NCBI GenBank assembly: GCA_937124545.1
Contig: CAKZKU010000031.1
Span: forward strand, 1-64,000
Origin: an uncultured Microbacteriaceae bacterium
Lineage (GTDB): Bacteria; Actinomycetota; Actinomycetes; Actinomycetales; Microbacteriaceae
Reading direction: 5' to 3'
DNA length: 64,000 bases
The position numbers and the translations under genes were made by a program. This document shows, in pieces, positions 31,651-32,725 of the stretch (positions within the stretch are counted from its first letter, which is position 1; the number at the start of each line of letters is the position of its first letter). The notes beneath the pieces were generated by a model. It was not told where the DNA came from. It saw only the letters and a program-made list of their open reading frames with translations, and did not search any database.

Positions 31651-31947
31651 ATGGCACTGTTCGCGGTGATCTATCGCTATAGCGATGACACCGCGAGCCT
31701 TGATGAGCACCGCCCGGCCCACCGCGAGTACATTCGCTCGCGGGTGGGCAACGGTGTCGTGGCTAGCGGACCAATGACAACCTCCGAAGGGCCCGGCGCA
31801 CTGATTGTGTGCACCGGGGAAGACGAGGCTGAGGTGCGTTCCATGCTGGATGCGGACCCTTTCTGGGGGCGAGGGCTCATTACTGCTCGAGAGATCGCTC
31901 CGTGGAACTTGGTGATGGGCTCCATCGGACTGGAGAAAGACGATTAG
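31651..31947 (+). CDS. YciI-family protein
   Basis: The 98-aa ferredoxin-like alpha/beta protein starts FAVIYRYSDD and has the conserved RPAHREYI (His) and the DPF segment in MLDADPFWG, as in YciI proteins. Members are small, often dimeric enzymes of uncertain role. AGGAAGAG precedes the ATG, 11 nt after pntB. Its TAG stop overlaps the proposed ATT start of the SDR gene. Confidence 0.82.
   Translation: MALFAVIYRYSDDTASLDEHRPAHREYIRSRVGNGVVASGPMTTSEGPGALIVCTGEDEAEVRSMLDADPFWGRGLITAREIAPWNLVMGSIGLEKDD
31932..31947 (+). promoter_or_regulatory. Shine-Dalgarno and ATT start overlapping a stop codon
   Basis: GGAG (31932-31935) is followed by 7 nt and then ATT (31943-31945). The YciI stop TAG (31945-31947) shares the last T, giving ATTAG. 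No ATG, GTG, TTG or CTG exists in this frame between the upstream in-frame TGA (31913) and the SDR glycine motif. Confidence 0.6.
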
Positions 31948-32725
31948 CACCCCTGCGGGCCGCGCGATTGTTACGGGGGCAAGTTCAGGAATCGGCGCTG
32001 CCTGCGTGAAAGCTTTGCGGGCCGCATCGTGGGAGGTGGTTGCTGTTGCACGCCGGGCCGATCGACTGGACGCTGTGGCGGCCGAAACCGGGTGTGACAC
32101 CTTTGTCGCCGATGTGACACAGCAGGCTGACGTCGAAGCTTTGGTCTCCTACACGGAAACCCTCGGAGCGGTGGACGCGCTGATCAATGTCGCGGGCGGT
32201 GCACTGGGGGTGGACTTTGTCGCGGAAGCTGACTCTGATGACTGGTCGACCATGATGGAGCTGAACGTGGTGAGCGTTCAGCGCATGGTCAAGGCATTTC
32301 TCCCCGCTTTGCGTGCGGCTAGTTCCACACGGGGCGTGGCAGACATCGTGACAATTTCCTCAACGGCAGCCTTCATCAGTTATGAGGGGGGCGGCGGCTA
32401 CAACGCGGCGAAAGCCGGTGTGCATGCGGCCCTCGGTGCGTTGCGCCTGGAGCTCGCCGGAGAGCCGATCCGGGTGGTCGAGGTTGCGCCGGGAATGGTG
32501 AAGACCGAGGAGTTCGCGCTGAACCGACTGGGGGGTGACGCCCAGAAAGCGGAGGCTTTGTACGAGGGAGTTGAGGCTCCTCTCACCGCTGAGAATGTTG
32601 CTGACGTTGTGGCCTACGCCCTGCACAGCCCTCCCCACGTGAACCTTGATGTGATTCAGATGAAGCCGGTTGCGCAGGCCGCACAATACAAGCTCCACCG
32701 CGGCCCGCTTGCTCCGAAACTCTGA
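31943..32725 (+). CDS. short-chain dehydrogenase/reductase, probable ATT start
   Basis: The 260-aa SDR reads ISTPAGRAIVTGASSGIG from an ATT codon, which gives the normal NAD(P) motif TGASSGIG at residues 11-18. Later it has NVAGG and the catalytic SSTAAF...YNAAK (Ser, Tyr, Lys). The ORF track start (GTG 32006) would delete the cofactor motif. A Shine-Dalgarno sequence lies 7 nt before ATT and the start overlaps the YciI stop, so coupled initiation is plausible. The substrate is unknown; YdfG-like serine dehydrogenases are relatives. Confidence 0.78.
   Translation: MSTPAGRAIVTGASSGIGAACVKALRAASWEVVAVARRADRLDAVAAETGCDTFVADVTQQADVEALVSYTETLGAVDALINVAGGALGVDFVAEADSDDWSTMMELNVVSVQRMVKAFLPALRAASSTRGVADIVTISSTAAFISYEGGGGYNAAKAGVHAALGALRLELAGEPIRVVEVAPGMVKTEEFALNRLGGDAQKAEALYEGVEAPLTAENVADVVAYALHSPPHVNLDVIQMKPVAQAAQYKLHRGPLAPKL

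Follow-up and report, generated by a model that had tools for sequence, protein, structure and literature searches.

In Escherichia coli, infC starts at AUU, encodes IF3 and autoregulates, and a non-canonical infC start is widespread. To our knowledge, natural bacterial genes with an AUU start are few apart from infC. E. coli pcnB has been reported as one of them (Binns and Masters 2002, as cited in PMC13009471). In Staphylococcus aureus, cvfC1 (AUU) and ccpN (AUA) have natural non-canonical starts with extended Shine-Dalgarno motifs, which were demonstrated by ribosome profiling and reporters and were found to give about 10% of the AUG reporter expression, with ccpN reaching as much as 30% when the medium was rich (PMC13009471). 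In the actinobacterium Streptomyces, sigR was shown to start at GTC behind an extended ribosome-binding site, AGGAGGTG, and its repression by IF3 was established by experiment, while infC starts at ATC, matching the reading of Pontimonas infC given below (PMC5472188). Overlapping stop and start codons have been described as supporting termination-reinitiation (PMC6728339, PMC12548453). Each element of the mechanism considered here, namely an AUU start, repression by IF3 and reinitiation, has its own support in the literature.

The window, a stretch of 64,000 nucleotides from an uncultured marine Microbacteriaceae bacterium of the genus Pontimonas, contains a short-chain dehydrogenase/reductase (SDR) gene that probably belongs with these cases. 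As in infC (AUU in E. coli; ATC in Streptomyces and Pontimonas), an AUH codon stands behind a good Shine-Dalgarno sequence; unlike infC, the gene codes for a metabolic SDR, and its unusual start is restricted to a single young lineage. To judge from the cited report, it resembles pcnB in being a chromosomal gene other than infC with an AUU start, but differs from it in gene and function. Like cvfC1 and ccpN, it would have a natural non-canonical start that is supported by a Shine-Dalgarno sequence and conserved between species. Unlike these two, with their extended motifs, it is known from sequence alone and has a Shine-Dalgarno core of 4 nt. It shares with sigR an actinobacterial origin and a non-canonical start, whereas sigR has GTC and an extended ribosome-binding site. 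The features of the locus are collected in Table 1.

Table 1. Features of the yciI-SDR junction in the window.
Feature	Position	Strand	Evidence
yciI-like gene, YCII domain, 98 aa, upstream cistron	31651..31947	+	Pfam PF03795, E 1.8e-12; TAG stop 31945-31947
Shine-Dalgarno GGAG	31932..31935	+	pairs with the genome's anti-Shine-Dalgarno; kept in the sister species
AAG, column of the relatives' canonical start (GTG/ATG), lost here	31937..31939	+	gap-free junction comparison across the genus
ATT, proposed initiation codon	31943..31945	+	identical in Pontimonas sp. AM-384-M10 (L002, L083)
SDR gene, YdfG-like, 260 aa from ATT	31943..32725	+	PF00106, E 1.1e-40
GTG, first canonical in-frame start, rejected	32006..32008	+	downstream of the TGASSGIG motif

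The SDR frame is opened by an in-frame TGA (31913-31915) and closed by a stop codon at 32723-32725 (+). The preliminary description had claimed that no canonical start lies between this TGA and the TGASSGIG motif, and its coordinates proved exact on reading the codons: TGG GCT CCA TCG GAC TGG AGA AAG ACG ATT AGC ACC CCT GCG GGC CGC GCG ATT GTT follow the TGA, the motif is encoded directly thereafter (ACG GGG GCA AGT TCA GGA ATC GGC), and inspection revealed no ATG, GTG, TTG or CTG in this interval. The sole AUN or ACG codons of the frame ahead of the motif are ACG 31940, ATT 31943 and ATT 31967. It had also been correctly described that ATT 31943 is preceded by GGAG at 7 nt and runs into the YciI stop to form ATTAG. 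The last base of ATT is the first base of TAG, giving a 5-nt overlap (31943-31947) in which start and stop codons overlap, as expected of a translationally coupled gene pair. RNA structure predicted around the SDR start was observed to be nothing out of the ordinary (z 1.2).

The protein matches the SDR profile well, and its TGASSGIG fits the TGxxxGIG cofactor motif, as in classical, YdfG-like SDRs. The best solved relatives by sequence are 2nwq (E 3e-36) and 3asu (E 7e-34). Against the YdfG equivalog model NF007829, the protein scores 151 bits versus a curated cut-off of 411, and is by this comparison a relative of E. coli YdfG, not an equivalog. The gene order is NAD(P) transhydrogenase genes, yciI, SDR, UbiA prenyltransferase and a carotenoid-desaturase-like gene, and the SDR may take part in NADP(H)-dependent reduction.

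The genome to which the window belongs has a standard anti-Shine-Dalgarno at the 3' end of its 16S rRNA (GGATCACCTCCTTTCT / CACCTCCTTTCT). GGAG ends 7 nt before ATT, 4 nt before ACG and 1 nt before AAG, and the end of its duplex with the genome's own anti-Shine-Dalgarno was computed to lie 6, 3 and 0 nt from these codons, respectively; L091, with no start to score, and L094, on the wrong strand, were excluded from this computation. Because of the GGAG distances, only ATT among the three codons is normally spaced, with its Shine-Dalgarno at a distance functional for an AUU start. The same distances bear on the strongest rival explanation, initiation at ACG 31940 or at AAG 31937, the ancestral start position, instead of at ATT. 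Both codons are in the SDR frame, adjoin ATT and differ from ATG by a single base, and AAG occupies the exact column of the relatives' GTG/ATG, but GGAG is too close to either for normal initiation. Moreover, AAG generally ranks with the least efficient near-cognate start codons. Initiation at ACG or AAG is therefore considered unlikely. AAG, ACG and ATT (31937-31945) are consecutive codons each a single base from ATG, which is probably a matter of chance. ATT moreover sits right on the YciI stop: in this phase, a 5-nt overlap requires a start codon with T as its third base, which excludes ATG, GTG and TTG. The relatives have an 11-nt overlap instead, e.g., GTGATCACTAA in L084.

Among 81 homologous SDR loci compared, nearly all from Microbacteriaceae, 79 have a canonical start that precedes the TG motif by 6 to 26 codons; the exceptions are the window and its sister species, so that the missing start is more than chance. 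The yciI-SDR junction is gap-free in nine genomes of the genus (G002, G006, G008, G009, G010, G012, G013, G015 and G017). In all nine, the YciI stop is in the same column as in the window, and a GTG (ATG in G010) stands exactly at the column of AAG 31937-31939, which precedes ATT by two codons. Since these relatives keep GTG/ATG in the column of the window's AAG, the canonical start has been lost in the window's lineage. G003 and G007 have an ATG start at a different spacing to the motif; apart from the window and its sister, the genus genomes with a readable junction thus have GTG or ATG. No further orthologue with ATT was found among 19 genus genomes, and G004, G005, G011 and G018 gave no match with an E value of 1e-60 or better. 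L092 (G014:C37:2-586), a relative 89% identical to SDR residues 66-260, is cut by its contig end at residue 66, so that its start codon, which could tell whether ATT is older, falls outside the contig. In a complete genome from a more distant member of the genus (L096, G001), the SDR is only 54% identical and is placed differently relative to the yciI stop; because of this arrangement, the junction does not hold for the whole genus.

In the protein tree, the window and the sister species are joined at 100/100, and G008 (GTG) is the next relative at 100/99; the row for G007 is a wrong-strand reading and some others lack the first few residues after the start codon, with the window clade unaffected. 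The simplest history suggested by these sequences is a single loss of the canonical start, on the branch to the window and its sister. The conservation of ATT raised in the preliminary description is accordingly shallow: the codon is identical in the sister species, whereas deeper relatives use GTG/ATG, and only one lineage of two genomes shows the feature. By this comparison, ATT is a lineage-specific replacement of the start codon. The relatives also bear on a second rival explanation, a +1 frameshift late in yciI that would yield a YciI-SDR fusion without a separate start. The SDR frame is indeed uninterrupted between 31916 and its own stop codon, and immediately ahead of the YciI stop it is offset from the yciI frame by a single base. 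However, the close relatives have separate yciI and SDR genes with GTG/ATG starts, no known slippery sequence for a +1 shift, CTT TGA for example, can be seen, and the good Shine-Dalgarno ahead of ATT speaks against a fusion. A frameshift is thus very improbable.

The closest genome is that of Pontimonas sp. AM-384-M10 (L002/L083, G016), with 93.4% nucleotide identity over 5.8 kb, and because of this value the two organisms are very probably different species. The yciI-SDR junction of the sister species is base-for-base identical to that of the window: CTGGAGAAAGACGATTAGCACC. This identity was not retained as proof of constraint. Positions 31897-31971, which surround the start, form an identical run of 75 nt, but three longer ones occur in the same 3.5 kb of window-sister alignment, so that this run, the fourth longest, is no signal of constraint on its own. 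For the SDR gene as a whole, which is uninterrupted by stops, comparison with the sister species gave dN 0.020, dS 0.29-0.34 and dN/dS about 0.06. These values indicate strong purifying selection between the two species, and therefore that the protein is made and kept. A third rival explanation, that the missing start reflects an error in sequencing or assembly, or else a gene in decay that has no usable start, could draw on the window genome being a fragmented assembly with an estimated contamination of 9%. Against this, the same bases recur in a different species whose genome was assembled independently, and neither the dN/dS value nor the absence of stops fits decay. An error at ATT 31943 was rejected for the identical junction, and this third explanation as a whole is extremely improbable. 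Equally improbable is translation from GTG 32006, the first canonical codon in the frame, since the resulting 239-aa protein would lack beta-1 and the TGASSGIG dinucleotide-binding motif conserved in homologues; this start was rejected, the loss of the Rossmann motif being at odds with a gene under purifying selection.

The earlier proposal that the SDR starts at ATT stands as the best reading, given the same bases in a second species and the Rossmann motif that GTG 32006 would lose. Most probably, this is a functional YdfG-like SDR whose start has moved from a lost GTG/ATG at 31937 to AUU 31943, a weak, IF3-sensitive start fed by YciI translation. In the common ancestor of the window species and Pontimonas sp. 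AM-384-M10, the GTG/ATG at 31937-31939 would have become AAG, and initiation would have shifted two codons downstream onto AUU. This codon would be read as a near-cognate by the initiator fMet-tRNA, giving the N-terminus Met-Ser-Thr-Pro, and ribosomes ending YciI would supply it by termination-reinitiation, so that the SDR may be made at a low level under IF3 discrimination. Of this mechanism, we infer the identity of the initiating codon, the reinitiation from YciI, the low expression and the IF3 sensitivity. It may further be, though this is a tentative suggestion, that termination-reinitiation at ATTAG relaxes start-codon discrimination and that AUU serves as the stable, regulated start of an ordinary metabolic gene.

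With the SDR, the short list of natural cases, which comprises infC, pcnB and cvfC1, along with sigR with its GTC, grows by one. Relatives with a canonical start make an evolutionary switch from GTG/ATG to AUU visible in a gene still under selection, and the case offers a way to test if initiation at poor start codons benefits from an upstream stop codon that overlaps them. Gene callers restricted to ATG/GTG/TTG would remove the cofactor-binding N-terminus of the SDR. Overall, the case is moderately interesting for its rarity and its clear evolutionary polarity. With regard to rarity, a survey of 0.51 Mb, consisting of the window and sister genome pieces compared with G008, made 246 conserved genes testable, and of these the SDR alone gave convincing evidence of a conserved domain starting ahead of any canonical in-frame codon, the survey being blind to genes with such codons farther upstream, e.g., infC. 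The best-scoring frame was kept per place, as shadow frames otherwise yield many false candidates.

In the genus, all 13 genomes with an infC match have a conserved ATC where the IF3 protein (ISDPRINDRI) begins, and in G000 it lies 6 nt after AAGGAG. This pattern suggests that infC starts at ATC in the genus, and if so, Pontimonas cells already use AUH starts. IF3 itself is ordinary-looking and nearly identical to the IF3 of relatives. In several of the infC loci (L097-L109, including L107 = G000:C292), an in-frame GTG is present upstream, and automatic annotation may extend the gene wrongly.
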